From contig NZ_WODC01000001.1 in the NCBI RefSeq assembly GCF_009729555.1, forward strand, positions 248,001-312,000: DNA of 64,000 bases. The letters run 5' to 3'. The notes under the pieces were generated by a model that was not told the DNA's origin, did no database searches, and was given only the letters and a program-made list of their open reading frames with translations. The DNA is from Pseudodesulfovibrio alkaliphilus. Lineage in GTDB: Bacteria; Desulfobacterota; Desulfovibrionia; Desulfovibrionales; Desulfovibrionaceae. This document shows positions 15,601 through 27,121 of the stretch, piece by piece (the stretch's first letter is position 1; each line of letters opens with the position of its first letter). The position numbers and the translations under genes are program-made.

Positions 15601-17247
15601 TCAGTCCCGCACGGCCAGCACATAGGTCATACCTGCGATTTCCTGACTGTCGATGACCCGCAGCCCGGTCGGTCGGCCGGGCCACTCGTCCCAGTGCCTG
15701 TCGCGGATGACGAGGATGACCCGTCCACGCCGGGCCATGAGGGCGGCCAGCTCGTCATAGTCGCCGGTCTCCTCGATGTCATGCCCGGCATAGTAGGTGA
15801 AGATGCCGGAATAGACCTTGTAGGCCAGGGGCGCGTAGCCCTGGTCGACATGCTGGCCGATCATTTCCCCCTGCCGCCTGGGGCTCATGGCGTCGTCCAG
15901 GGACGGGGCGACCATCAACCCCACAGGGTAAAGCCACAGGGTCACTGCCAGCACCGACCAGAGCAGACAGGTCTTGCTCCCCCGACGGCGCAGCCAGACA
16001 AGCCCCAGCCCGCCAACCAGCAGCAGGCAGGCCGAGAGGCCCAGCCCGCGCACCGGCACCGGAAACGGCAGCAGATCGCCCGCAATCAGCAGCCCCGCGC
16101 CCAAAGCCAGCCACAGCCCGGCCACCCAGGCCCAGAAACGGGCCGAGCGGACCGCGTCGAGGCGGGTCATGGCCTGGGCCGTGAGCAGGGCCAGAGGGGG
16201 AAACATGGGCAGGATGTAGATGAGCACCTTGCCGCTCAGGCTGGAGAGAAAGACGAAGGTGGAGAGGACCATGATCCACAGGAAGGGCATAGGCGTCGCC
16301 TCGCGCCGCCCGGCCCAGATCGCGCCCCACGCCTCGAGCGAGAAAAACCGCCTGGCCGGGGCGGACACGGCAAAAAGCGTCCAGGGCAACCAGGCCAGGG
16401 GAAGGGCGATGAAATAGTAGGTTAGGGGTTCCCGATGGTGAAAGGTGTGTGTGGCCCGCTGCAACACATGCTTGCCAAGGACGGTATCCAGAAGAAAAGA
16501 CGGTCCTTCGGCCAGGGCCACCCCGACCACCCAGAGGGTCAGCATGGACAACATGGCCAACAGACCGAGCCCCATGGCCCTGGTGAAAAGCCTGCGCACC
16601 TCTCCCCGCCACGCGAGATAGAGAACAAGGGTCAGCAGCGGCAGGATGAAGCCGATGGGCCCCTTGGTCAGCGTGGCCAGCCCGGCCAGGAGAAAGGCGG
16701 CCAGTGGCCATCCCCCCTGCCTTGGCCCGGACACGGCCCGGTACAGGCAGGCGTGGCTGAGGATGATCAGCCCGGCAAAGAGCAGGTCCATGCGCGAGTA
16801 ATGGAACAGCCCCACCAGAAAGAAATTGGCAAGGAGCATGAGCACACAGGCCAGACACACGGAGCGGTCGAAACCCAGCGTCCGGGCCAGCACATGGGCC
16901 GAGGCCACGAAGAAGAGCCCGGACAGGGCCGCGCCGAGGAAGAACACGGCGGGCATGTCCGCCGGAGTCAGGGTGTCGATGAGCCACAGGAACCAGAAAT
17001 AGACCGGCGGCTTGTCCGGGTAGGGCTGGCCGTTGAGGGAGAGGACCAGCCATTTGCCGCGCTCCGCCAGATTCTGGTAGGCGTTGGCGTAGCGCACCTC
17101 GTCAGAAAACCACAGAGCTCGGTTGCCCAGGGTGAACCATGTCTGAGCCGCCACGGCGAGGATCATGGTCAGCCAAGGGTGGTCCCTGAGCAGGGACCAC
17201 AGCCGGGAGGCCGGGCGCTTTTGGGAGTTGCAGCAGTCCATGAGCAT
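15601..17247 (-). CDS. ArnT-like lipid-linked sugar transferase (GT83/PMT-type membrane glycosyltransferase)
   Basis: 548 residues with about 12 membrane segments and a soluble C-terminus. The first periplasmic loop has the family acidic motif SDEVRYANAYQNLAERGKWL, then PYPDKPPVYFWFLWL. LATLTKGPIGFILPLL and SSLSGKVLIYILPMFPPLALL follow in ArnT order. Such enzymes use undecaprenyl-phosphate sugars to modify lipid A or other periplasmic acceptors; the sugar here is unknown. Its ATG at 17247 overlaps the stop of the PAP2 gene (TGATG), showing coupling. An ATG six bases further in (17241) is better spaced from AGGGG. Confidence 0.85.
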   Translation of the reverse strand: MLMDCCNSQKRPASRLWSLLRDHPWLTMILAVAAQTWFTLGNRALWFSDEVRYANAYQNLAERGKWLVLSLNGQPYPDKPPVYFWFLWLIDTLTPADMPAVFFLGAALSGLFFVASAHVLARTLGFDRSVCLACVLMLLANFFLVGLFHYSRMDLLFAGLIILSHACLYRAVSGPRQGGWPLAAFLLAGLATLTKGPIGFILPLLTLVLYLAWRGEVRRLFTRAMGLGLLAMLSMLTLWVVGVALAEGPSFLLDTVLGKHVLQRATHTFHHREPLTYYFIALPLAWLPWTLFAVSAPARRFFSLEAWGAIWAGRREATPMPFLWIMVLSTFVFLSSLSGKVLIYILPMFPPLALLTAQAMTRLDAVRSARFWAWVAGLWLALGAGLLIAGDLLPFPVPVRGLGLSACLLLVGGLGLVWLRRRGSKTCLLWSVLAVTLWLYPVGLMVAPSLDDAMSPRRQGEMIGQHVDQGYAPLAYKVYSGIFTYYAGHDIEETGDYDELAALMARRGRVILVIRDRHWDEWPGRPTGLRVIDSQEIAGMTYVLAVRD

Positions 17248-17870
17248 CACCCCTTTTTCCTGAACAACGAGGAGTCCGCCAGGACCATGGTGGCCATACC
17301 GCCAAAGCTGCCGAGCATCCAGCCAAAGAAGACATCGCTCGGATGATGCCAGCCAAGATAGACACGAGAGAGCCCTACCAGGGCGGCAGCGACACCCGTC
17401 AGCACGGTCAGGCCGGTTCTGCCCAGGCGCAGGGCGAAAGGCACGGCCCAGCCCATGAACTCCGTGGTGTGGCCCGACGGGAGCGAATGAAAGGCCCCCC
17501 GTGTGGTGATGGGGTCGAACCACACCCCCTGGCCCGGCCGGGGGCGGCCCACGGTGTGCTTGACGAAATGGACGGCCAACCCGGCCACCACCGCCTGCAC
17601 GGCCACCAGGATGCCCATGAAGCGGAGGGTCTCCCTGTCGCCGGAGCGCCACGCCCGAAAGAGCACCCAGCCGAACAGGCCGTAGAAAACCGGGTTGCAC
17701 CAGTCGGTGATCAGGGTGAAGGCCAGGGTCAGACCGGGATGCGCCTCGCGATGCTCCTGGAAGAATCCGGCCACTGCCTCCTCCGAGGGGAACACGAGCC
17801 AGAGTGCTGCAAGCAGGAACAGCAGGGGCGCAGAGAGCAAGGCCAGATGTCTCAGATGAAAAATACGCAT
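17247..17870 (-). CDS. PAP2-family membrane phosphatase
   Basis: 207 residues, about six membrane segments. All three phosphatase motifs are present: KHTVGRPRP, LPSGHTTEF and SRVYLGWHHPSDV, with the catalytic His in the second and third. Likely substrates are undecaprenyl pyrophosphate or lipid A phosphates on the periplasmic face. It is coupled to the ArnT-like gene by a TGATG overlap, which suggests that the phosphatase and the sugar transferase act in one pathway of envelope modification or carrier-lipid recycling. Confidence 0.9.
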   Translation of the reverse strand: MRIFHLRHLALLSAPLLFLLAALWLVFPSEEAVAGFFQEHREAHPGLTLAFTLITDWCNPVFYGLFGWVLFRAWRSGDRETLRFMGILVAVQAVVAGLAVHFVKHTVGRPRPGQGVWFDPITTRGAFHSLPSGHTTEFMGWAVPFALRLGRTGLTVLTGVAAALVGLSRVYLGWHHPSDVFFGWMLGSFGGMATMVLADSSLFRKKG

Positions 17871-17879
17871 GCGGACTCC

Positions 17880-18227
17880 CTAGGCCATCCGAGCCGGATG
17901 GGCAAGGTCGGCCTCCGAGGGCAGCGGCTGTTCGTCGTCGAGTCCGTCTTCCGGGTCATCGGTTTCGTCGCCAAACCCTTCCGCGTCCGCATTATCGGCT
18001 ATCATCTGCTGCGGCGCCCCGGCATCGGAAGCGCCTCGGGCGGCTGCGGTGCCTGGGTACGGAACATGGGTGTAGTCGTCCCATACCGCCTCGTCCACGC
18101 CCAGTTCGGTCAGGATGCCGGCCAGGGGCCGACCCTCCTGCTTCCAATACTTGTAGCCGTGATCGGCGCACGCAAAGGGAATGACCAGGGTGCCGTCCTC
18201 GTCCAGGTAGGGTATGGTTTTGTCCAT
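17880..18227 (-). CDS. Acidic hypothetical protein upstream of the PAP2/ArnT pair
   Basis: 115 residues from the ATG at 18227, nine bases after GAAAGAG; a GTG at 18245 is also in frame. The first 55 residues look folded (IPYLDEDGTLVIPFACADHGYKYWKQEG, ILTELGVDEAVWDDYTHVP). The C-terminal half is low-complexity and strongly acidic (DNADAEGFGDETDDPEDGLDDE). I do not recognise a family. It lies nine bases upstream of the PAP2 gene and is probably cotranscribed. Confidence 0.65.
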   Translation of the reverse strand: MDKTIPYLDEDGTLVIPFACADHGYKYWKQEGRPLAGILTELGVDEAVWDDYTHVPYPGTAAARGASDAGAPQQMIADNADAEGFGDETDDPEDGLDDEQPLPSEADLAHPARMA

Positions 18228-18324
18228 GGACGGGGACTCTTTCACCTTTCGCGAAAAAATTCAACTGAACTCGCGCCCGTCCGCATATGCGGGGCTGGAC
18301 GCCAACAGAGGCTCGTCAAAACGG

Positions 18325-20106
18325 TCAGGCCACGGCCTGCCCTTTGTCGGAATTGGCGTCGGCCAGGCAGACCAGCCTGTCGATCTCGCGGACCTTCTTG
18401 AGCACGCAGCGCATGATGCGTCTGAATTCAGGATAATCGCGCTGCGCGTATCGCTTTTTGGCACGGGTCAGTCCGGCCAGATCCACCAGCTCGTTATAGA
18501 GGTAGGGAGTATACAGCGGGTCCTGGTTCAGGAATATCTCGACCCGGCCCATGGCCTCGTGCACTGCGGTCTGGTTGGCTCCAAGGTTGCGAAAGAGCTT
18601 ACCCAGGTGCTTTTCGATATTGCGCAGCGATGTGGACCACGCCGGTCCACGCGGCTCGAAACGCATCGGGACCATGGTCCCCCGGCTGGCCGCAAGCTCG
18701 GCCATGAACCGCATCACCCCGCCCGGAGCCGAGGCGAACAACCCCTCGACGTAGGCGGTTTCCAGGTCCACCACGCGGGTTCCCTCAATGGGTACGCCGC
18801 CTCCGTAGACGTTGAAGACCGGCACCGGCGACTGCTTCAAATCCTCTTCCAGTTCGCGCTTGGCGGTCATGTACTGCACCGTGGTCAGGATCTCCTCGCC
18901 TTCCATGTTGCGGGTGGTCTGATGAAAGCTGCGGCGGGTCATGTTGGTGGTGTGGCCGTGGTGACCGGCTGCGTGGGAACGGTTGCCGATCCAGGCGTAA
19001 TCCTGGCCGACGAGAACCATATGGCTGACGCCCATCCAACGCAGCAGGCGCGAGAGAGTCACCGAGACGTTGCCGCCCGCGTCAATGACCAGCTCGTGGT
19101 CCTTCATGACATACGTTCCCATGCCACCCACGGTCCACAGGGGAAAGGTCGGCCCGGCATATCGGGCCACAGCCTCGGGCTGAACCTTGGTGGAATAGAT
19201 GAGCGGAATGTCTTGCACGAAATCGGGATCAAGACGGCTGAAGATGTTGAGCATGGACACGTCGTAGTCGATGGCCACGCAGAAGTGGGGCCTGATGCCA
19301 AGCGCCTGGAGGGCGGGCACTGTCTGCAAGGCGCAGGTATAAAGGGCCTGTCCAGGGTTGTCCCGCAGCCGCGCAGCCGATTTCTCGAGGCTCGGCCCGG
19401 CGCCGAGAATGACCCCGCCCAGTCCGGCCGCCCTGCCCTCAAGCCCCCTGATGGACCCCTCGGCCATGGCCCGACGGAAGTTGCGCACCTCGTTGCCGAC
19501 CATCACGTCCTGGCGAAAACGCAGGGTCGTCAGTTCCAAGGAAAAATTCTCCAGCTTGTTGCGCATCCAGGTGGTCCAGCGGGCGTACTCCGGCCCCAAC
19601 TGCTGGCTGGGCAGATCGCCCTTGAGATGAATCTGGCCATAGACGAACTGGAGATCAAGGTTCTTGACCACCTCATGGACATACCGCTCATCGGGCATGA
19701 GAATATGAAACTTCCTCGCCTCGAAAAAGGGGCGGTAATCGGTCTGGCCCAGGCAGGCCAGGAGCATCTCCGGCCGCGGCTCGAGCAACATGACCTTGTG
19801 GCTGTCTGGCGTGTTCTTGAGTACGTGATTGACGCCGTAGCCCAGATTGCAGCCCACGATGAAGGTGGCCGAGGTGTCGGGCTTGTCGCCTTCGGTCCAC
19901 GAGGAGTAAAGCCCCACGGGCGGCAGAGACTCGAACATGCCCTTGCCGCTCTCCATGCGCCAGTCGTGGATGCCGTATTCATTGATGAACAGGTTGTTGA
20001 GCAGCGCCTCTTCACCAAAGGGATGAGTGGAAAGCCACTGAAAAACGGGATGCCCCTTGGCCTGGAGGTACTCGATGTTGTCCTTGAGAAAGGGATATGC
20101 GGTCAT
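18325..20106 (-). CDS. Maf-type motility-associated factor / MptE-like (DUF115) protein
   Basis: 593 residues. The central DUF115 domain is recognisable by GVILGAGPSLEKSAARLRD, the CALQTVPALQALGIRPHFCVAIDYD segment, then GGNVSVTLSRLLRWMG and VLVGQDYAW. The N-terminal domain has a Rossmann-like FIVGCNLGYGVNHVLKN followed by VMLLEPRPEMLLACL. Proteins of this family transfer nonulosonic acids such as pseudaminic acid onto flagellin. The ATG at 20106 is preceded by AAAAGGAA. No flagellin gene is nearby, so the target is inferred only from the family. The adjacent 172-base region is divergent with the CysK fusion. Confidence 0.85.
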   Translation of the reverse strand: MTAYPFLKDNIEYLQAKGHPVFQWLSTHPFGEEALLNNLFINEYGIHDWRMESGKGMFESLPPVGLYSSWTEGDKPDTSATFIVGCNLGYGVNHVLKNTPDSHKVMLLEPRPEMLLACLGQTDYRPFFEARKFHILMPDERYVHEVVKNLDLQFVYGQIHLKGDLPSQQLGPEYARWTTWMRNKLENFSLELTTLRFRQDVMVGNEVRNFRRAMAEGSIRGLEGRAAGLGGVILGAGPSLEKSAARLRDNPGQALYTCALQTVPALQALGIRPHFCVAIDYDVSMLNIFSRLDPDFVQDIPLIYSTKVQPEAVARYAGPTFPLWTVGGMGTYVMKDHELVIDAGGNVSVTLSRLLRWMGVSHMVLVGQDYAWIGNRSHAAGHHGHTTNMTRRSFHQTTRNMEGEEILTTVQYMTAKRELEEDLKQSPVPVFNVYGGGVPIEGTRVVDLETAYVEGLFASAPGGVMRFMAELAASRGTMVPMRFEPRGPAWSTSLRNIEKHLGKLFRNLGANQTAVHEAMGRVEIFLNQDPLYTPYLYNELVDLAGLTRAKKRYAQRDYPEFRRIMRCVLKKVREIDRLVCLADANSDKGQAVA

Positions 20107-20278
20107 GCTCGTTCCTTTTCGCGGCAGGGCGCGATGCTGCGACTCATTGCCGGGTCCGCCCGGACTGCTTGTTCTGGCTGAAAATTGCATGATGCGTGCC
20201 AGTTGCGCCCCCCGGTTTTTTACCATACGGTGCCTGGGTCGAACACGAATCCTTTTTCCGCTATTTCAGGGAACTGTC

Positions 20279-22576
20279 ATGACCAAAGACCTGCTGGCGC
20301 TCATCGGGAACACCCCGCTGGTGGAGATTCGCCACCTCAACCCGAACCCGAATGTCAAGATTTTGGCCAAGCTCGAGGCGCAGAATCCAGGCGGATCGGT
20401 CAAGGACCGCGTGGCCGCGGCCATGATCGAGGCGGCCGAACGCTCGGGCGAGCTGACCAAGGACAAGATCATCATCGAGGCCACCTCGGGCAATACCGGC
20501 GTGGGGCTGGCCATGGTCGCGGCCATCAAGGGATACCGCATCAAGCTGCTCATGCCCGAGACGGCCAGCGAGGAGCGCAAGATGATCATGGCCGCCTACG
20601 GGGCGGAGCTGGAACTGACGCCCGGCCATCTCTCCACCGACGGAGCCATCGAACGCGCCTACCGCTACGCCCGCGAGGAGCCGGACACCTATGTGCTCAT
20701 GGACCAGTTCAACAACCCTGCCTCCATTGACGCCCACTACCACGGCACGGGCCTCGAGATATGGGAGCAGACCGGCGGCGCTGTGACCCATTGCGTCATG
20801 GCGCTTGGCACCTCGGGCACGGCCATGGGCATCGCCAGGCGGCTGCACGAGATGGGCCAAGTCCATGTGGCTGCCGTGGAACCTTACGCGGGCCACAAGA
20901 TTCAAGGCCTCAAAAACATGCTGGAATCCTATCCTCCCGGCATATATAACAAGACCTGGCTTGATGAAATCCTGCACGTGGACGACGAGACCGCCTTCGA
21001 GAACTGCCGCAGACTGGCCCGGTCCGAGGGCATCTTCGCGGGCATGAGCTCGGGCGCGGCCCTGGGCGGGGCCGTCCAGCTTGCGGAGCGCATCGACTCC
21101 GGCCTTATCGTGGTCCTCTTCCCGGACTCGGGCGAGCGCTACCTGAGCACCCATCTTTACCGCCAACAGGCGGGCAGCGGCATCAGCGTCTTCGACATGG
21201 CCACGGGCGCGACCAAACCCCTGGCCACCCAGGCCGGCCTCGGTCTCTACTCCATGGGACCGAGCCTGGACAATCCCGACGGCCTCGACGCATGGCGGCG
21301 CGTGGTGGTCCTCGACGTGCTCACCCGGCATCTGCGGGCAAACGGGGTGGATGTCCACGCCGCTGTGGGGCTGACCGACATGGATGACCGCACCCTGGCC
21401 GCGGCGAGGCACGCGGATATAGACCGGGCCGCCTTCGCCGCCAGCCGACGGGCCATGATCGTGGACCGCGCCCGAAGCATGGGCGTTGACGCGGCCGAAA
21501 CAGGGGGCGCGGGCGTGGCCTTCCCCCTCTCCTCCACTGGCGAGGACAAGGCCCTCGCCCTCTGCCGCAAGCTGCTCGGCAAGGGACTGGCCTACGAGAA
21601 ACTGCGCTCGGTCTACTTCGACGTGTTCCGCGACAAGCGCTACGGCGAAATCGGGGCCATGGACATGGACAAGGTCTCGGGCGGTCGCACCGTGGACCTG
21701 GACGCCTACGTCAAGGACAACCCGCTTGACTTCACCCTGCTCAAGCGGGCCACCCTGCTCGACCTCAAGCGCGGCGAGGTGCTGGAAACCGAATGGGGCA
21801 ACGTGCGCCCCTCCTGGTTCCTGCAGCACGCGGCCACGGCCCTGACCGTCCTGCCCCGCATCGACGTGATGATCGGCAGCGAGAAGCACCGCTTCCCCCA
21901 CCTTGAGAATCTCAGGGCCATCTGGTCCACTTCCGGGCGCGAGCTGCAGGCGTGGCTCATCTACCATCAGACCACGGAGTGCAGCGACGAGACGCTGCCC
22001 ACCGTGGCCGAAAAGCTCGGCGGCTACCGGGCGGCCCGCTTCTGGCTGCTCTCCTCGGCCTGCCGCAAGCCCCTGTGCGCCAGCGCCGAAAACCTCTCCA
22101 TGTGGTCGCGCAACTGGCGGCGGGTGCAGGAGGCGGCCGCATCCCTCATGACCGGACGCACCGACAAGGGAGAAGCCGTTTCCGCCGAGGTCAGCCAGGC
22201 CGCCTTTGATCTGCGGGCCGGATTCAAGACGGCCATGAGCGAGGATTTCGCCCTGCACCGCTTCTGGCCCGCGCTCTTCCGCTTCGTCAAGCAGGTCAAC
22301 GCCTGGGCCGCTGCCGCGACCCTGACCGGGGCCGAGGCCGCCACCTGCCTTGAGGAGCTGCTGGCCGTGGATTCCATCCTCGGCATCCTCGACCACGCGC
22401 AGATGCCCCTCTCCCTCTCGGAGCTACCCCGCGAGGTGCAGGGCATGCTGGCCGACCGCCAGAAGGCCCGGGAGACCCGCGACTTCGCCGCCTCCGACGC
22501 CCTGCGCGACATGATCGCCGAGGCAGGCTACCGCCTGGAGGACACCGCGGGGGCGCCCAGGGTTTTCAGGATGTGA
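20279..22576 (+). CDS. cysK: Fusion: cysteine synthase + catalytically degenerate cysteinyl-tRNA synthetase
   Basis: 765 residues. Residues 1-300 are a complete cysteine synthase: PLP lysine K42 in NPGGSVKDR, substrate loop TSGNTG (69-74), and phosphate loop GTSGT (177-181). Residues 320-765 follow the order of cysteinyl-tRNA synthetase: LYSMGPS for MYVCGPT, VVLDVLTRHLRANGVDV, LTDMDD (365-370), YFDVFRDKRYGE, NPLDFTLLK, RPSW (510-513), FPHLEN (539-544) and a final DFAASDALRD...YRLEDT tail. The class I HIGH and KMSKS motifs and three of four zinc-ligand positions are missing, so aminoacylation is not expected. The synthase half should make cysteine from O-acetylserine or a related donor. The ATG at 20279 starts a normal CysK N-terminus. 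Confidence 0.92.
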   Translation: MTKDLLALIGNTPLVEIRHLNPNPNVKILAKLEAQNPGGSVKDRVAAAMIEAAERSGELTKDKIIIEATSGNTGVGLAMVAAIKGYRIKLLMPETASEERKMIMAAYGAELELTPGHLSTDGAIERAYRYAREEPDTYVLMDQFNNPASIDAHYHGTGLEIWEQTGGAVTHCVMALGTSGTAMGIARRLHEMGQVHVAAVEPYAGHKIQGLKNMLESYPPGIYNKTWLDEILHVDDETAFENCRRLARSEGIFAGMSSGAALGGAVQLAERIDSGLIVVLFPDSGERYLSTHLYRQQAGSGISVFDMATGATKPLATQAGLGLYSMGPSLDNPDGLDAWRRVVVLDVLTRHLRANGVDVHAAVGLTDMDDRTLAAARHADIDRAAFAASRRAMIVDRARSMGVDAAETGGAGVAFPLSSTGEDKALALCRKLLGKGLAYEKLRSVYFDVFRDKRYGEIGAMDMDKVSGGRTVDLDAYVKDNPLDFTLLKRATLLDLKRGEVLETEWGNVRPSWFLQHAATALTVLPRIDVMIGSEKHRFPHLENLRAIWSTSGRELQAWLIYHQTTECSDETLPTVAEKLGGYRAARFWLLSSACRKPLCASAENLSMWSRNWRRVQEAAASLMTGRTDKGEAVSAEVSQAAFDLRAGFKTAMSEDFALHRFWPALFRFVKQVNAWAAAATLTGAEAATCLEELLAVDSILGILDHAQMPLSLSELPREVQGMLADRQKARETRDFAASDALRDMIAEAGYRLEDTAGAPRVFRM

Positions 22577-22678
22577 GGGGGGCAACATAGTACCCGAACA
22601 TTTTCGAAACTATCTTGACAATCTCAACAAAAAAAATGAAACTATATCCAAACCACTTTTTCCACGAGGGTACACTTG

Positions 22679-22933
22679 ATGAGAAAGCATGTTTGGGGGA
22701 TTATCATTGTTGCTGCGGCTGCTCTGGTGGGATTGTTTAGTCTATACAAACTATACTCTGCCTATCAAGCATACAAGTACATATCTTTTTATAAAATGGA
22801 TGAATTCTTCATGGATCCCGTCAAAGAAGCTTTTGTCATTTATTCAGTTCTTTTTGTTACTGCCTTTATTGCAGCCAGAAAGGGAACAAAGTTGATCGAT
22901 AAAGAGTCGTTGCAGAACATCGTGAAGGAATAA
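22679..22933 (+). CDS. AT-rich orphan small membrane protein
   Basis: 84 residues with two predicted membrane segments (about 5-27, with IIIVAAAALVGLFSLY, and 50-68, with FVIYSVLFVTAFIAA) and a basic C-terminal tail. ACGAGGG lies eight bases before the ATG; a TTG directly before it is also possible. The gene and its upstream region are clearly AT-rich, near 40% GC by eye, against well over 60% for the neighbours, and use codons the neighbours avoid (ATA, TTT, AAA). This suggests recent acquisition. No family recognised. It is convergent with proA. Confidence 0.6.
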   Translation: MRKHVWGIIIVAAAALVGLFSLYKLYSAYQAYKYISFYKMDEFFMDPVKEAFVIYSVLFVTAFIAARKGTKLIDKESLQNIVKE

Positions 22934-22998
22934 GTATCTTGGGGGCTGACCTGACAAGGCACTCCGCTTTGCTAGGACAGCCTCCACCTTACCCCCCC

Positions 22999-24258
22999 CT
23001 ACTCCCGCACCTGGCCCTCGCCCAGGAGGACGAACTTGGCGCTGGTCAGCTCGTGTACGCCCATGGGGCCGTAGGCGTGGAGCTTGGAGGTGGAGATGCC
23101 GATTTCGGCACCCAGGCCGAGCTGAGCGCCGTCGTTGAAGCGGGTGGTGGCGTTGGCCACCACCAGGGAGGCGTCCACCTCGCGCAGAAAGCGCATGCAG
23201 TGCTCGTAGTTCTCGCTGAGGATGGCCTCGGTGTGGTTGGAGCCGTGCTCGGCGATGAAGTCCAGGGCCTCGTCCAGGGAATCCACCACCCGCACCGCCA
23301 GGACCAGATCGAGGAACTCGCATCCCCAGTCGGCGGGCGCGGCCGGTTCGGCGCTCTCGCCCAGCAGGGGCAGGGAGCGCGGGCACGCCCTGAAACGCAC
23401 CCCCTTGGCGCTCAGGGCCTTGTCCACGCGGGGCAGGAGCACCTCGGCCACGTCGCGGTGGACCAGCAGGCACTCCAGGGCGTTGCAGCCGCTGGGGTAC
23501 TGGGTCTTGGCGTTGTCGATGATGGGTACGGCCCGGGTGATGTCGCAGGAGGCGTCGGCAAAGAGGTGGCAGACGCCCTTGTAGTGCTTGAGCACCGGCA
23601 TGGTGGCCTGCTCGGTCACGGCCCGGATCAGCCCCTCGCCGCCGCGGGGAATGACCACGTCGATGTAGTCGGCGAGCTTGAGCAGCTCGGCCACGGCCTC
23701 GCGGTCCGTGGTGGCGGGCACCTGGACCGCGTCACGCGGCAGCCCGGCCGCTTCCAGGGCGCGGTGCATGAGCCCTGCCAGACAGGCGTTGGAATGGAAC
23801 GCCTCGGACCCTCCGCGCAGGATGACCGCGTTGCCCGCCTTGAGGCAGAGGATGCCCGCGTCCACCGTGGCGTTTGGCCGCGACTCGTAGATCATGGCCA
23901 CCACGCCGAGCGGGACGCGCATACGCCCCACCAGCATACCATTGGGCCTTCGGGTCATGGACTCGATGCCGCCCACAGGGTCGGCCATGGCCGCCACCTC
24001 GCGGCAACCGACGACCATGGAGCCCAACACCTTTTCGCTGATGGTCAGCCGCTGCACCCGGGCCTTGTCCAGCCCGCGCTCGGCGGCGACCGCAAGGTCC
24101 AGGGCGTTGGCTTCCGCCACGGCCACGGACTCGGATTCCAACAGATCGGCCAGCACCAGCAGCGCCTCGCTCCTGGCCTTGCCGGACGCCCCGGCCAGCG
24201 CCCGCGATGCCCGCCGGGCGCGCCTGCCCATGTCAATCATCTCCTGGCGTATGTCCAT
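22999..24258 (-). CDS. proA: Gamma-glutamyl phosphate reductase
   Basis: 419 residues from the ATG at 24258, which has GGAGGGGG directly upstream; the family norm is about 417. It reduces gamma-glutamyl phosphate to glutamate semialdehyde in proline synthesis with NADPH. Visible are RRPNGMLVGRMRVPLGVVAMIYESRPN, KAGNAVILRGGSEAFHSN, the catalytic Cys in YPSGCNALECLL, and HGSNHTEAI near the end. proB is not adjacent. Confidence 0.95.
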   Translation of the reverse strand: MDIRQEMIDMGRRARRASRALAGASGKARSEALLVLADLLESESVAVAEANALDLAVAAERGLDKARVQRLTISEKVLGSMVVGCREVAAMADPVGGIESMTRRPNGMLVGRMRVPLGVVAMIYESRPNATVDAGILCLKAGNAVILRGGSEAFHSNACLAGLMHRALEAAGLPRDAVQVPATTDREAVAELLKLADYIDVVIPRGGEGLIRAVTEQATMPVLKHYKGVCHLFADASCDITRAVPIIDNAKTQYPSGCNALECLLVHRDVAEVLLPRVDKALSAKGVRFRACPRSLPLLGESAEPAAPADWGCEFLDLVLAVRVVDSLDEALDFIAEHGSNHTEAILSENYEHCMRFLREVDASLVVANATTRFNDGAQLGLGAEIGISTSKLHAYGPMGVHELTSAKFVLLGEGQVRE

Positions 24259-24593
24259 GCCCCCTCCGTGCGCGGCTTGTCGATCATCTTGTGCATATCC
24301 GAAAACGCGGGTCGGACCGGAGGTCCGCCCGGTCAACAGTGCTAACCTCTGTACAGTCGCAAAGTCAAACCTTCCCGACGAACTCTGCCCTGGCTCCGAC
24401 ACAGGTGGTTTTACATATTTTGTCATTTAATCGACACCTGAGCCACAGCGGGACCGAAAATCAGACCCAAAAACCCTGTTTCAACGAAATAGGCTTTGAC
24501 CTTTTTTACAATTTTGCTTATCAAGCCCTCTGCGCCGTCAGGCCATAGAATCCAAGAGCTATCCAGACACCCACACGGAGGACACTGAAACCC
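24259..24593. other. Divergent intergenic region between proA and the ior operon
   Basis: No gene. It holds a CGGACC-GGA-GGTCCG hairpin near 24314-24328, a CAGGTG...CACCTG inverted repeat around 24400-24440, and the predicted promoter at 24496-24524, listed separately. Confidence 0.5.
24496..24524 (+). promoter_or_regulatory. Predicted sigma70 promoter of the ior operon
   Basis: TTGACC (24496-24501), a 17-base AT-rich spacer and TATCAA (24519-24524), about 70 bases before the start codon of the first gene. Confidence 0.45.
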
Positions 24594-25247
24594 ATGGTTG
24601 AAAGCAAGACCGCCGGACAGGCCACCCTTGACGAGATCGAGGCCCGCGTTCCCTCGTCCCTGCACCCCGTTCTCGAAGCGGCTTTCAAGTACAGAAAGCA
24701 GATTGTGGCGGGCGTGGCGGCCATCATCCTCGCGGCCGCGGCCTACGCGGCATACAGCGGCTACGCGGCGCGGACCCTGGCCGAGGCCCAGAGCCAGCTC
24801 GGCGTCATCGTCATCGAGGCATCGGGCCAGGACAGGCTCGACAGGCTCGAAACGCTGCTCGGCACAGCGCCCTCGTCGGCCAAAGCCGCCGTGCTCTCGG
24901 AACTGGCCCAGTCGGCCATGAAGCTTGAGGACTGGGACAAGGCCGCCAACGCCTGGAGCCGTCTTGCGGGGGTGGCTGACAAGGAGATGAAGATCGTGGC
25001 CCGCCTTGGCGAGGCCAAGTGCCTGCTGCTGGCGGGCAGGGCCGACGAGGCTCTGACCAATCTCAAGAGTCTGGCGGGCATGGTTCCGACAGGATTCGCC
25101 GCCCCCGTCTACCGCCAGTTGGCCCTGGCCGCCGAGAAGGCGGGCGATACGGCCCAGGCGCTCCAGGCCTATCGCCGACTGGCCGGGGAGCAGGTGTCCG
25201 ACAAGCCCTTTATCGACCACAAGATCGCCCAGTTGGAAGCGAACTGA
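24594..25247 (+). CDS. YfgM-like single-pass membrane protein with TPR-type repeats
   Basis: 217 residues. A cytoplasmic N-terminus of about 35 residues leads to one membrane helix (QIVAGVAAIILAAAAYAAYSGY) and then Ala-rich helical pairs typical of tetratricopeptide repeats (LSELAQSAMKLEDWDKAANAWSRL, then GEAKCLLLAGRADEALTNLKSL, then LALAAEKAGDTAQALQAYRRL). Such proteins act as periplasmic chaperone adaptors at the translocon, but this role is only inferred. GGAGG lies 12 bases before the ATG. It is 38 bases upstream of iorA and likely in its operon. Confidence 0.7.
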   Translation: MVESKTAGQATLDEIEARVPSSLHPVLEAAFKYRKQIVAGVAAIILAAAAYAAYSGYAARTLAEAQSQLGVIVIEASGQDRLDRLETLLGTAPSSAKAAVLSELAQSAMKLEDWDKAANAWSRLAGVADKEMKIVARLGEAKCLLLAGRADEALTNLKSLAGMVPTGFAAPVYRQLALAAEKAGDTAQALQAYRRLAGEQVSDKPFIDHKIAQLEAN

Positions 25248-25285
25248 TCGCGCTCACCCGATCCTATCAATTACGGAGAGATTTC

Positions 25286-27121
25286 ATGGCACATTCCCTC
25301 CTGGCCGACACCCCCGGCCACATAGACCTTCTGCTCGGCAACGAGGCCATCGTCCGCGGAGCGGTCGAGGCCGGCCTGCAAGTGGCCACCTGCTACCCCG
25401 GCACCCCATCTTCCGAGGTGCCCGACACCCTTTTCCGGCTCTCGCCCGAAGCCGGGTATTCCTTCGAGTACTCGGTCAACGAAAAGGTCGCCCTTGAAGT
25501 GGCAGGAGGCGCGACCCTGGCCGGAGCGATGACCCTGTGCACCATGAAGCATGTCGGGGTCAACGTGGCCGCCGACCCGCTCATGACCCTGTGCTACACA
25601 GGCACCCCGGGGGGCCTGCTCCTGCTCTCGGCCGACGACCCCGGCTGCCATTCGAGCCAGAACGAACAGGACAACCGCTACTACGCACGGCTGGCGTGCA
25701 TGCCTGTCCTCGAACCGACCACGGCCCAGGAGGCCAAGGACATGACCCGCGACGGGTTGCTCCTGAGCAAAAAACACGGCGCACCCTTCATGCTGCGCAC
25801 CACCACCAGGGTCAACCACCTGCGCGGCCCGGTGGAGTTCGGCCCGGCGCCCGCTCCGGGCAAACCCGACGGCTTTCAGCGCAACCCCTCGAAATTCGTC
25901 CCCATCCCGGCCTTTTCCCGGCCCATGCACGTGGCCCTGCTGGAGCGGCTCGAAGCCTTGCGCCAGGAAGCAGAGAACTCTCCCTACAACACCGTCACCG
26001 GCAACGGCCCGCTGGGCATCGTCTGTTCGAGCATCAGCCGCGCCTATGTGGCCGACGCCCTGACCCAATCAGGCCTGACCGACAAGGTTCGGGTGCTTGG
26101 ACTCGGCTTCAGCCACCCCCTGCCCGAGACCCTGTGTCTCGACTTCCTCTCGGGTGTCTCCAAGGTGCTCGTGGTGGAGGAGCTGGAACCCATTCTCGAA
26201 AACGACCTGCGGGCACTGGCCCAGAAAAACGCGTTGAACGTCGAAATTCTGGGCAAGAACGTGCTGCCCCGCTGTAATGAATTCACGGTGACCATGGTCG
26301 AGGACGCCATCCGCACCCTGACCGGCGACCCCGCTCCGGTGCGTAACGCCTGCCAGCCCGCCGCCCTGCCCATGCGGCCGCCCAATCTCTGCGCAGGCTG
26401 TCCCCATCGCGGCACCTACTTCGCGGCCCGCAAGGTCTTTGGCGACGACGCCATCTATTCCTCCGACATCGGCTGCTACACCCTGGGGCTGCTGCCCCCC
26501 CTCCAGGCGGCCGACTTCCTGCTGTGCATGGGCTCGTCCATCTCGGCGGGCGGCGGGGCGGCCCTGGCCTCGGGAAAGGCCGTGGTGGCCTTCATCGGCG
26601 ACTCCACCTACTTCCACTCGGGCCTTACCGGCGTGGCCAACGCCGTGTTCAACAAGCACAACGTGCTCATCGTGGTGCTGGACAACCGGACCACGGCCAT
26701 GACCGGCCATCAACCGCATCCGGGCGTGGACAAGACCATCCTCGGCGACAACGAATCACGGCTGGACATTGAGGCATCGGTGCGCGGGCTCGGCGTGACC
26801 GAGGTGCGCGAAGTCAACCCCTTCAACCAGAAGAAGACTCAGGCCGCCCTTGAGGAACTCAAGGCCATGAAGGGCGTACGGGTGCTCATCGCCAAGGAGC
26901 CGTGCCCGCTGTTCACCCGCCGGGTCTACAAGAAGGTCGCGCCCCAGGTGGCCTATGTGGCGGAAAGCTGCACCGGCCGATTCGAGTGTCTGGACACCCT
27001 GGCCTGCCCGGCCATGTACCGCGACGGCGACCGAGCTGCGGTCAATCCCATCCTGTGCAACGGCTGCATGCTCTGTCTGCAGGTCTGTGGGCACATCAAA
27101 GCCAAGAAAAGGGGCAGCTAG
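25286..27121 (+). CDS. iorA: Indolepyruvate:ferredoxin oxidoreductase, alpha subunit
   Basis: 611 residues. It oxidatively decarboxylates aryl pyruvates to aryl-acetyl-CoA, passing electrons to ferredoxin, with the beta subunit. The N-terminal pyrimidine-binding domain starts with GNEAIVRGAVEAGLQVATCYPGTPSSEV. The thiamine diphosphate domain has CAGCPHRGTY, then SDIGCYTLG, and GDSTYFHSGLTG...LDN. The C-terminus holds Cys pairs for an iron-sulfur cluster (CTGRFECLDTLACP and ILCNGCMLCLQVC). The ATG at 25286 has CGGAGAG upstream. iorB follows after one base. Confidence 0.95.
   Translation: MAHSLLADTPGHIDLLLGNEAIVRGAVEAGLQVATCYPGTPSSEVPDTLFRLSPEAGYSFEYSVNEKVALEVAGGATLAGAMTLCTMKHVGVNVAADPLMTLCYTGTPGGLLLLSADDPGCHSSQNEQDNRYYARLACMPVLEPTTAQEAKDMTRDGLLLSKKHGAPFMLRTTTRVNHLRGPVEFGPAPAPGKPDGFQRNPSKFVPIPAFSRPMHVALLERLEALRQEAENSPYNTVTGNGPLGIVCSSISRAYVADALTQSGLTDKVRVLGLGFSHPLPETLCLDFLSGVSKVLVVEELEPILENDLRALAQKNALNVEILGKNVLPRCNEFTVTMVEDAIRTLTGDPAPVRNACQPAALPMRPPNLCAGCPHRGTYFAARKVFGDDAIYSSDIGCYTLGLLPPLQAADFLLCMGSSISAGGGAALASGKAVVAFIGDSTYFHSGLTGVANAVFNKHNVLIVVLDNRTTAMTGHQPHPGVDKTILGDNESRLDIEASVRGLGVTEVREVNPFNQKKTQAALEELKAMKGVRVLIAKEPCPLFTRRVYKKVAPQVAYVAESCTGRFECLDTLACPAMYRDGDRAAVNPILCNGCMLCLQVCGHIKAKKRGS

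Follow-up and report, generated by a model that had tools for sequence, protein, structure and literature searches.

What use might a cell have for a cysteine synthase joined, in one polypeptide, to the body of a cysteinyl-tRNA synthetase (CysRS) that has lost its catalytic motifs? The question is raised by an open reading frame of Pseudodesulfovibrio alkaliphilus (Desulfobacterota, order Desulfovibrionales), found at positions 20279–22576 on the plus strand of the window, i.e. the whole stretch of 64,000 nucleotides that was analysed (contig NZ_WODC01000001.1, positions 248,001–312,000). The answer favoured here, to which a probability of about 45% is given, is that the fusion may comprise a functional cysteine synthase of the CysM type and, C-terminal to it, a pseudo-synthetase that binds tRNA-Cys and tunes or places the synthase. 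This proposal comes from the comparison of related sequences across the phylum.

Lost and retained residues of the fusion protein

The frame is single and unbroken, with an ATG at 20279 and a stop codon at 22574–22576, and it specifies 765 amino acids. Residues 1–295 form a CysM-like cysteine synthase and residues 301–765 a full-length CysRS-like body, which is the layout claimed by the original prediction, made from the letters of the DNA. That the downstream half might be a frameshifted remnant, a concern voiced with that prediction, is ruled out by the single frame, by conservation and by ratios of nonsynonymous to synonymous substitution rates (dN/dS) that point to purifying selection. Pfam matches are to PALP (residues 8–283, 2e-69), tRNA-synt_1e (318–549, 2.4e-21) and CysS_C (715–756, 5.4e-5), and DALR_2 is below its cut-off in the 765-residue protein. 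The best sequence match of the C-terminal half among solved structures is E. coli CysRS (1li5, E 3.3e-26). A fold search with the whole protein returned mainly matches to the pyridoxal phosphate (PLP) half; the C-terminal half (301–765) was hence folded separately, and the overall CysRS fold, including the anticodon domain, is present in it. The protein scores 125.4 bits with the NCBIfam model cysS, below the cut-off of 340.

Conservation was counted in aligned fused sequences, 182 from Desulfovibrionales and 157 from outside the order, alongside 39 true CysRS. Duplicates are present among the 182, some genes having been reached twice (e.g. L112 and L118), and counts are therefore of rows and not of species. 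Left out of the Desulfovibrionales alignment were L084, L086, L087, L093, L095, L096, L113, L117, L119 and L120, as well as six proteins of less than 700 amino acids (contig ends or frame breaks), and three proteins were left out of the motif counts outside the order. L096 (Desulfothermus okinawensis) and L086 are broken across several frames, by mutation or assembly error.

In the Desulfovibrionales rows, HIGH, KMSKS and the zinc ligands besides H234 (E. coli numbering) are all gone. H36 and H39 of HIGH occur at a fraction of 0.00, and the letters of KMSKS are each retained in at most 0.03 of the rows. The alignments bear out what had been read from the single sequence, namely PDGLDAW in place of HIGH, the loss of KMSKS, and the exchanges of C28, C209 and E238 for M326, H517 and L545; they add that H234 is retained as H541 (Table 1). 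C28, C209, H234 and E238, mapped here by alignment, are presumably the zinc ligands of E. coli CysRS. The four CysRS zinc ligands bind the cysteine thiol. An active CysRS in the Desulfovibrionales fusion is rejected on the lost motifs, and the earlier view that catalytic motifs were lost while the scaffold was conserved is backed by motif counts, dN/dS and invariant columns.

The anticodon domain kept more. Positions conserved in 95% or more of the 39 true CysRS, 110 in all, were used, and a position was taken as kept when present in at least 90% of fused rows. The Desulfovibrionales rows keep 35 of the 110, with 6 of 8 in the anticodon domain versus 29 of the other 102 (P = 0.012, one-sided Fisher test). 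An insert at residues 436–517 keeps 13 of 27 (Fisher P = 0.033) and the remaining regions 6/27, 8/27, 1/14 and 1/5, the last being the helical region; two of the 110 positions belong to none of these six regions. Decay is milder beyond the order, where fused rows keep 65 of the 110 positions, including 7 of 8 in the anticodon domain.

Among the retained residues, Asp755 corresponds to E. coli D451, which we take to be an anticodon contact. For G34, a published account of E. coli CysRS gives a water network at R423, hydrogen bonds from R427 and D436, and stacking by W432 (PMC12684709). R423 and D436 are conserved without exception across the 339 fused rows, all of which also have an aromatic residue at position 432; at R427, 337 of them have Arg or Lys. 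The anticodon-reading residues and the insert are among the most constant parts of the C-terminal half. The insert carries a family-specific invariant motif, GLAYEKLRSVYFD...TVDLxxYVK...FTLLKRxTLxDLK...WGNVRPSW.

Binding of either tRNA-Cys or cysteine, or else delivery of cysteine, had been proposed originally. The tRNA-Cys option is now favoured because the anticodon-reading residues are so constant; three of the four zinc ligands are lost in Desulfovibrionales, and cysteine binding by the CysRS route is therefore not supported in that order. Most of the examined relatives outside the order retain the zinc/cysteine pocket. The tRNA-Cys of P. alkaliphilus carries a GCA anticodon, and one such tRNA was found in the genome by ARAGORN and by a short pattern that could miss others.

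Table 1. Features of the fusion gene and protein, with window coordinates. Unless stated otherwise, paired counts are for fused rows of Desulfovibrionales (182) and fused rows outside the order (157).
Feature	Residues	Position	Strand	Basis or conservation
Shine-Dalgarno-like AGGGA		20268..20272	+	6 bases 5′ of ATG; read by eye
CysM-like PLP cysteine synthase half	1-295	20279..21163	+	NCBIfam/Pfam PALP
Lys42	42	20402..20404	+	181/182, 1 gap; 40/40 loci outside order
TSGNTG	69-74	20483..20500	+	each letter 181/182, 1 gap; 40/40 loci outside order save T69S in 6
CysRS-like putative pseudo-synthetase half	301-765	21179..22573	+	Pfam, alignment
Met326 at C28	326	21254..21256	+	Cys 0.00 of 182; 149/157; 39/39 true CysRS
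PDGLDAW in place of HIGH	333-339	21275..21295	+	alignments
Family-conserved insert, GLAYEKLRSVYFD ... GNVRPSWFLQ	436-517	21584..21829	+	densest run of invariant columns
His517 at C209	517	21827..21829	+	Cys 0.00 of 182; 152/157; 39/39 true CysRS
His541 = H234, sole zinc-ligand position retained	541	21899..21901	+	179/182; 157/157; 39/39 true CysRS
Leu545 at E238	545	21911..21913	+	Leu 171/182; Glu 138/157
KMSKS deleted around here	565-573	21971..21997	+	alignments
Anticodon-binding domain CysS_C	715-765	22421..22573	+	Pfam; 6/8 conserved CysRS positions kept in >=90% of rows
Arg727 = E. coli R423	727	22457..22459	+	182/182; 157/157
Arg731 = E. coli R427	731	22469..22471	+	164 R, 16 K, 2 Q of 182; 155 R, 2 K of 157
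Phe736 = E. coli W432	736	22484..22486	+	aromatic 182/182; 157/157; true CysRS F 22, W 17 of 39
Asp740 = E. coli D436	740	22496..22498	+	182/182; 157/157
Asp755 = E. coli D451	755	22541..22543	+	181/182 (1 gap); 157/157

The synthase half has Lys42, TSGNTG, Q143, T178, G180 and S257 practically invariant, both in the Desulfovibrionales rows and in the fused loci outside the order. Lys42 is presumably the lysine that forms the Schiff base with PLP, and we take TSGNTG to be the substrate loop that holds the free carboxylate in cysteine synthases. The half passes the NCBIfam model cysKM (349.8 bits, cut-off 344.15) and scores higher with cysM (342.7, cut-off 394.2) than with cysK (311.4, cut-off 350.95), reaching neither equivalog cut-off. 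By these scores it appears closer to CysM than to CysK; the original label of an intact CysK thus holds for the active-site motifs but not for the type of enzyme.

Cysteine synthases were surveyed in 50 hand-picked genomes, 30 with the fusion and 20 without. In six of the 30 (G397, G487, G364, G493, G602 and G032) no cysteine synthase other than the fusion exceeds the cut-off, and a stand-alone enzyme over the cut-off is present in all 20 that have no fusion. No fused cysteine synthase was seen among the enzymes over the cut-off in these 20 genomes, where open frames measure up to 392 amino acids, plus one of 871 in G348; this last, found at CysM, was rejected as a fusion, being merely an open frame upstream. 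Since its active-site motifs are near-invariant and it is the sole cysteine synthase in six of the 30 genomes, the fused enzyme is probably active.

P. alkaliphilus also has separate genes for both activities. Whether a functional cysS exists elsewhere in the genome had been named as a point to check, and an intact one was found on another contig (L001, 486 amino acids, with HIGH and KMSKS), which rules out the fusion as the cell's sole CysRS. A separate CysK is flanked by cysE-like and nifS-like frames, as read by eye.

Distribution, decay and descent

With the C-terminal half as query, the family was found in 155 of 297 Desulfovibrionales genomes (hand count), the weakest match being at 1.2e-60, and the next genome stands at 1.8e-32, which is the level of true CysRS. 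All 34 genomes of the genus carry it, with the C-terminal half matched end to end or nearly so. One genus genome has two copies of this half, one of them within a frame of only 503 amino acids (G250:C8:26316-27689). Of 378 genomes from the rest of the phylum, at least 143 (hand count) have matches at E 2.9e-43 or better, in open frames of 629–1403 amino acids; among those listed, G308 and G580 match only about half of the C-terminal half. For the order and for the rest of the phylum alike, open frames were seen for about the 150 best matches. Both halves are in one frame in all 40 loci fetched from outside the order, which were hand-picked from the 143. Named carriers include Pseudodesulfovibrio, Humidesulfovibrio, Solidesulfovibrio, Fundidesulfovibrio, Desulfomicrobium and Desulfonatronospira, and the closest named relative is P. 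pelocollis (92%).

Annotations of the fusion proteins vary at the source between ‘cysteine--tRNA ligase’, ‘cysteinyl-tRNA synthetase’ and ‘cysteine synthase’. Of the 120 matches listed by a database search from one relative outside the order, those that NCBI names are called either cysteine--tRNA ligase or cysteinyl-tRNA synthetase; most of them come from Thermodesulfobacteriota or Deltaproteobacteria. Each annotation covers one half only, which flags the database naming.

The family forms a graded series of decay, in which the zinc ligands are mostly kept outside the order and the pocket is also gone in Desulfovibrionales. Outside the order T68 is kept in 146 of 157 rows and the four zinc ligands together in 137, the final His of HIGH is retained in just 17, and none of the 157 has HxGH plus a KMSKS-like motif. 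HLGN or HMGN together with KMSRS occurs in 14 of these rows, namely L173, L183, L184, P0127, P0128, P0133, P0140, P0149, P0173, P0175, P0177, P0190, P0200 and P0236, and 12 of the 14 also have the complete set of four zinc ligands. They are possible intermediates and might still activate cysteine. Among 40 fused relatives examined beyond the order, 31 (hand count) pass the NCBIfam cysS cut-off, as do 5 of 5 tested proteins, and it is possible that fused relatives outside the order are active ligases.

Of the 40 fusion genomes sampled outside the order, 38 (hand count) also have a separate CysRS over the cut-off. The exceptions are G317, with only a 100-residue CysRS fragment, and G498 (82% complete), with none. 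Among 30 separate CysRS fetched from such genomes, 29 have a literal KMSKS. Two genomes have an extra CysRS-like match besides the fusion and the normal CysRS: G350:C27:36639-38012, at 438.5 bits in an open frame of 729 amino acids, and G314:C1:594025-595398, at 435.8 bits in one of 742.

Trees of both halves fit a single old fusion. In a tree of 103 CysRS and CysRS-like rows, built by a quick method and including some rows of unusual composition, the 39 true CysRS are split off by one branch with a support of 100 in the Shimodaira–Hasegawa-like approximate likelihood ratio test (SH-aLRT); 24 fused Desulfovibrionales rows group together (100), and 40 other fused rows lie in between. In the tree of the CysM half (86 rows) the fused rows stand apart from 22 stand-alone enzymes with modest support (83/82; 86% of 200 bootstrap trees), and five stand-alone CysM adjoin the fused rows. 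Five proteins from outside the order (L151, L152, L159, L169 and L171) join Desulfovibrionales in both trees (90 for CysRS, 95/88 for CysM), and they too are without C28, C209 and E238. The stem branch of the order measures 1.42 changes per site in the CysRS half versus 0.16 in the CysM half. From the agreement of the trees and these stem lengths, the halves appear to have travelled together and the CysRS half to have changed fast before the order radiated. A tree and a search of CysRS structures had been suggested as checks of the original prediction; the relationship to CysRS is confirmed by the 1li5 match, and what was described as a single protein is now seen as one of a phylum-wide family. 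The fusion is old, and it is widespread among sulfate reducers and their kin.

Three comparisons gave usable dN/dS values (with L044 dS was saturated in the C-terminal half, and with L097 it exceeded 2). The CysM half and the CysRS-like half give 0.078 and 0.177 versus L043, 0.060 and 0.216 versus L047, and 0.137 and 0.319 versus L045. In addition, 44 columns of the C-terminal half are invariant across 66 aligned proteins. Both halves are thus under purifying selection.

Two neighbouring frames were noted by eye. An opposite-strand gene upstream (18325-20226, minus strand) is DUF115-like; its relatives lie close to the fusion at 20 of the 36 long loci from the order, and nothing evident ties the two in function. 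A small frame with a hydrophobic start lies directly downstream (22680-22933, plus strand).

Possible roles of the C-terminal half

The C-terminal half would bind tRNA-Cys through its GCA anticodon and be unable to charge it. Such binding, most simply of uncharged tRNA-Cys as a signal of cysteine shortage, might in turn alter the activity, assembly or location of the synthase, a step that is less certain, and cysteine output would thereby follow demand. Relatives outside the order that have the zinc pocket could sense cysteine too. Control or placement by tRNA-Cys is the simplest account because a tRNA reader unable to charge appears joined to a working cysteine synthase. In support, the residues that read G34 stayed fixed despite the 1.42 changes per site on the stem. 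An anticodon domain can be lost when not needed, since the CysRS paralogue CysRS* is reported without it and the 411-position model of the mycothiol cysteine ligase MshC stops before it. A bolder version is doubtful, namely that the synthase reads the charging state of tRNA-Cys via its built-in pseudo-synthetase, as a biosynthetic enzyme controlled by the cognate tRNA at the protein level, with the family passing by stages from proteins that read both cysteine and tRNA to proteins that read tRNA alone.

Several points weigh against control by tRNA-Cys. The enrichment rests on 8 positions in the anticodon domain, and its P values are rough, given the kinship and partial redundancy among the rows. 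With the published G34 contacts that belong to the conserved set, of which there are three (R423, R427 and D436; position 432 is not among the 110), P is only 0.03. The dN/dS of the anticodon domain is 0.035, 0.249 and 0.233 (L043, L047 and L045), not consistently below that of the C-terminal half, and its constraint falls on single positions, not on the domain as a whole. The retained arginines and aspartates could serve folding, and the insert, also kept above the rest, might form an interface or bind a new ligand. Docking of the full tRNA is unsure, the protein having lost the KMSKS loop, which lies near the acceptor end. No riboswitch or T-box was found at the gathering score in window positions 17000-26000, and no recurrent cysteine gene was found among the neighbour clusters listed for 36 long loci. 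It should also be pointed out that such control would be dispensable, because 142 of the 297 genomes of the order are without the fusion.

The C-terminal half might instead work without tRNA, as a sensor of a small molecule: the old cleft would bind a metabolite (cysteine in zinc-bearing relatives; O-acetylserine, serine or another compound here) and feed back on the synthase. Outside the order, the retention of C28 (149 of 157), C209 (152), H234 (157), E238 (138) and T68 (146) with incomplete HIGH and KMSKS is the pattern of a protein that binds and does not activate. There is a parallel in HisZ, an inactive paralogue of histidyl-tRNA synthetase (HisRS) that binds histidine and mediates inhibition of HisG (PMC10795190; PMC9437257). 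The sensor is more likely for relatives that have the zinc pocket. It is unlikely as a general account, in that the loss of three zinc ligands in Desulfovibrionales makes thiol recognition of the CysRS type improbable there, and a sensor has no need for anticodon readers to stay fixed. A scaffold would use the same anticodon face, the C-terminal half placing the synthase beside true CysRS or tRNA-Cys so that cysteine passes straight to charging, with less free cysteine in sulfide-rich cells and without allostery. True CysRS does coexist with the fusion in the genomes sampled outside the order; yet no partner interface was identified and cysS was not recognised among recurrent neighbours in 36 loci, and channelling of this kind is distinctly unlikely.

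If the CysRS fold served dimerisation or solubility only, the anticodon residues would be fixed by the needs of a small domain. The well-conserved insert (13/27), the 8 positions behind the enrichment and the unremarkable dN/dS of the domain agree with this; it is nevertheless quite improbable, given that published contacts, including the base-stacking aromatic, are fixed while conserved positions of the helical region drift (1/5 kept). The presence of a PLP enzyme and a tRNA-Cys reader in one chain brings to mind chemistry on tRNA, with the PLP half acting on an amino acid carried by tRNA-Cys in the manner of SepCysS and the C-terminal half holding the tRNA. Here the TSGNTG loop, assumed to hold a free carboxylate, is unchanged and a normal CysRS is present in the genome, which makes such chemistry very improbable, although RNA-dependent cysteine synthesis exists elsewhere (PMC5424206). 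That the C-terminal half is a functionless, decaying remnant would explain the strong acceleration on the stem to the order and the broken members (L086, L096 and L113). Such decay is scarcely credible in the face of dN/dS values of 0.18–0.32 versus three relatives, the 44 invariant columns, and the end-to-end or nearly end-to-end matches throughout the genus.

Comparison with known systems

In the literature covered, outside which most subscription papers lie, no description was found of the fusion or of a dead CysRS paralogue fused to its enzyme. The available part of a review of duplicated synthetases covers MshC and CysRS* and not the fusion.

MshC differs from the fusion in being an active ligase, and the fusion protein scores far below the cut-off of the NCBIfam model mycothiol_MshC (48.3 versus 485.1). 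In the fused relative P0128, which has 783 residues, the 411-position MshC model runs out at residue 717, short of the anticodon domain. An argument that MshC has no anticodon domain, drawn from a fold match to model positions 1-405, was dropped; CysRS chains 1li5, 3tqo and 8qhp also stop near 410. CysRS* of Desulfobacterales, like the C-terminal half a CysRS paralogue of the same phylum, is reported to charge SelC* and to have no anticodon domain (PMC9437257). The fusion is the reverse, with CysS_C present and the catalytic motifs lost. Two CysRS matches, to model positions 1-409 and 1-410 (G422:C61:164356-165615 and G572:C32:31336-32607), are without the anticodon domain and have in-frame stops; they are perhaps relatives of the published CysRS*.

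On the synthase side, CysM and CysK share the fold and the active-site motifs of the PLP half, but they stand alone. Cystathionine beta-synthase is a PLP enzyme with a C-terminal pair of sensor domains. It resembles the fusion in having a regulatory domain added to the PLP fold and differs in that this is a small domain pair and not a synthetase body.

The nearest precedent is HisZ–HisG, the short-form ATP phosphoribosyltransferase. Here also an inactive paralogue of the synthetase for an amino acid works with an enzyme that makes that amino acid, and control of amino acid synthesis by a pseudo-synthetase is thus already known. HisZ is related to HisRS, which is of class II; it is a separate chain, acts at the first step of the pathway and senses histidine. 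The fusion, in contrast, has a class I CysRS relative joined to a PLP enzyme with the anticodon domain retained, and its C-terminal half was not found to be homologous to HisRS, its fold and family being those of CysRS. The searches aimed at it gave no description of a pseudo-synthetase that derives from CysRS, shares a chain with the enzyme it might serve, and has lost the catalytic motifs while retaining residues that read the tRNA. The phylum offers a natural series of decay steps, from which the function kept last may be read and tested. Should it bind tRNA-Cys, the fusion would couple the assimilation of sulfur to the demands of translation in sulfate reducers and represent a counterpart, at the protein level, of T-box control.

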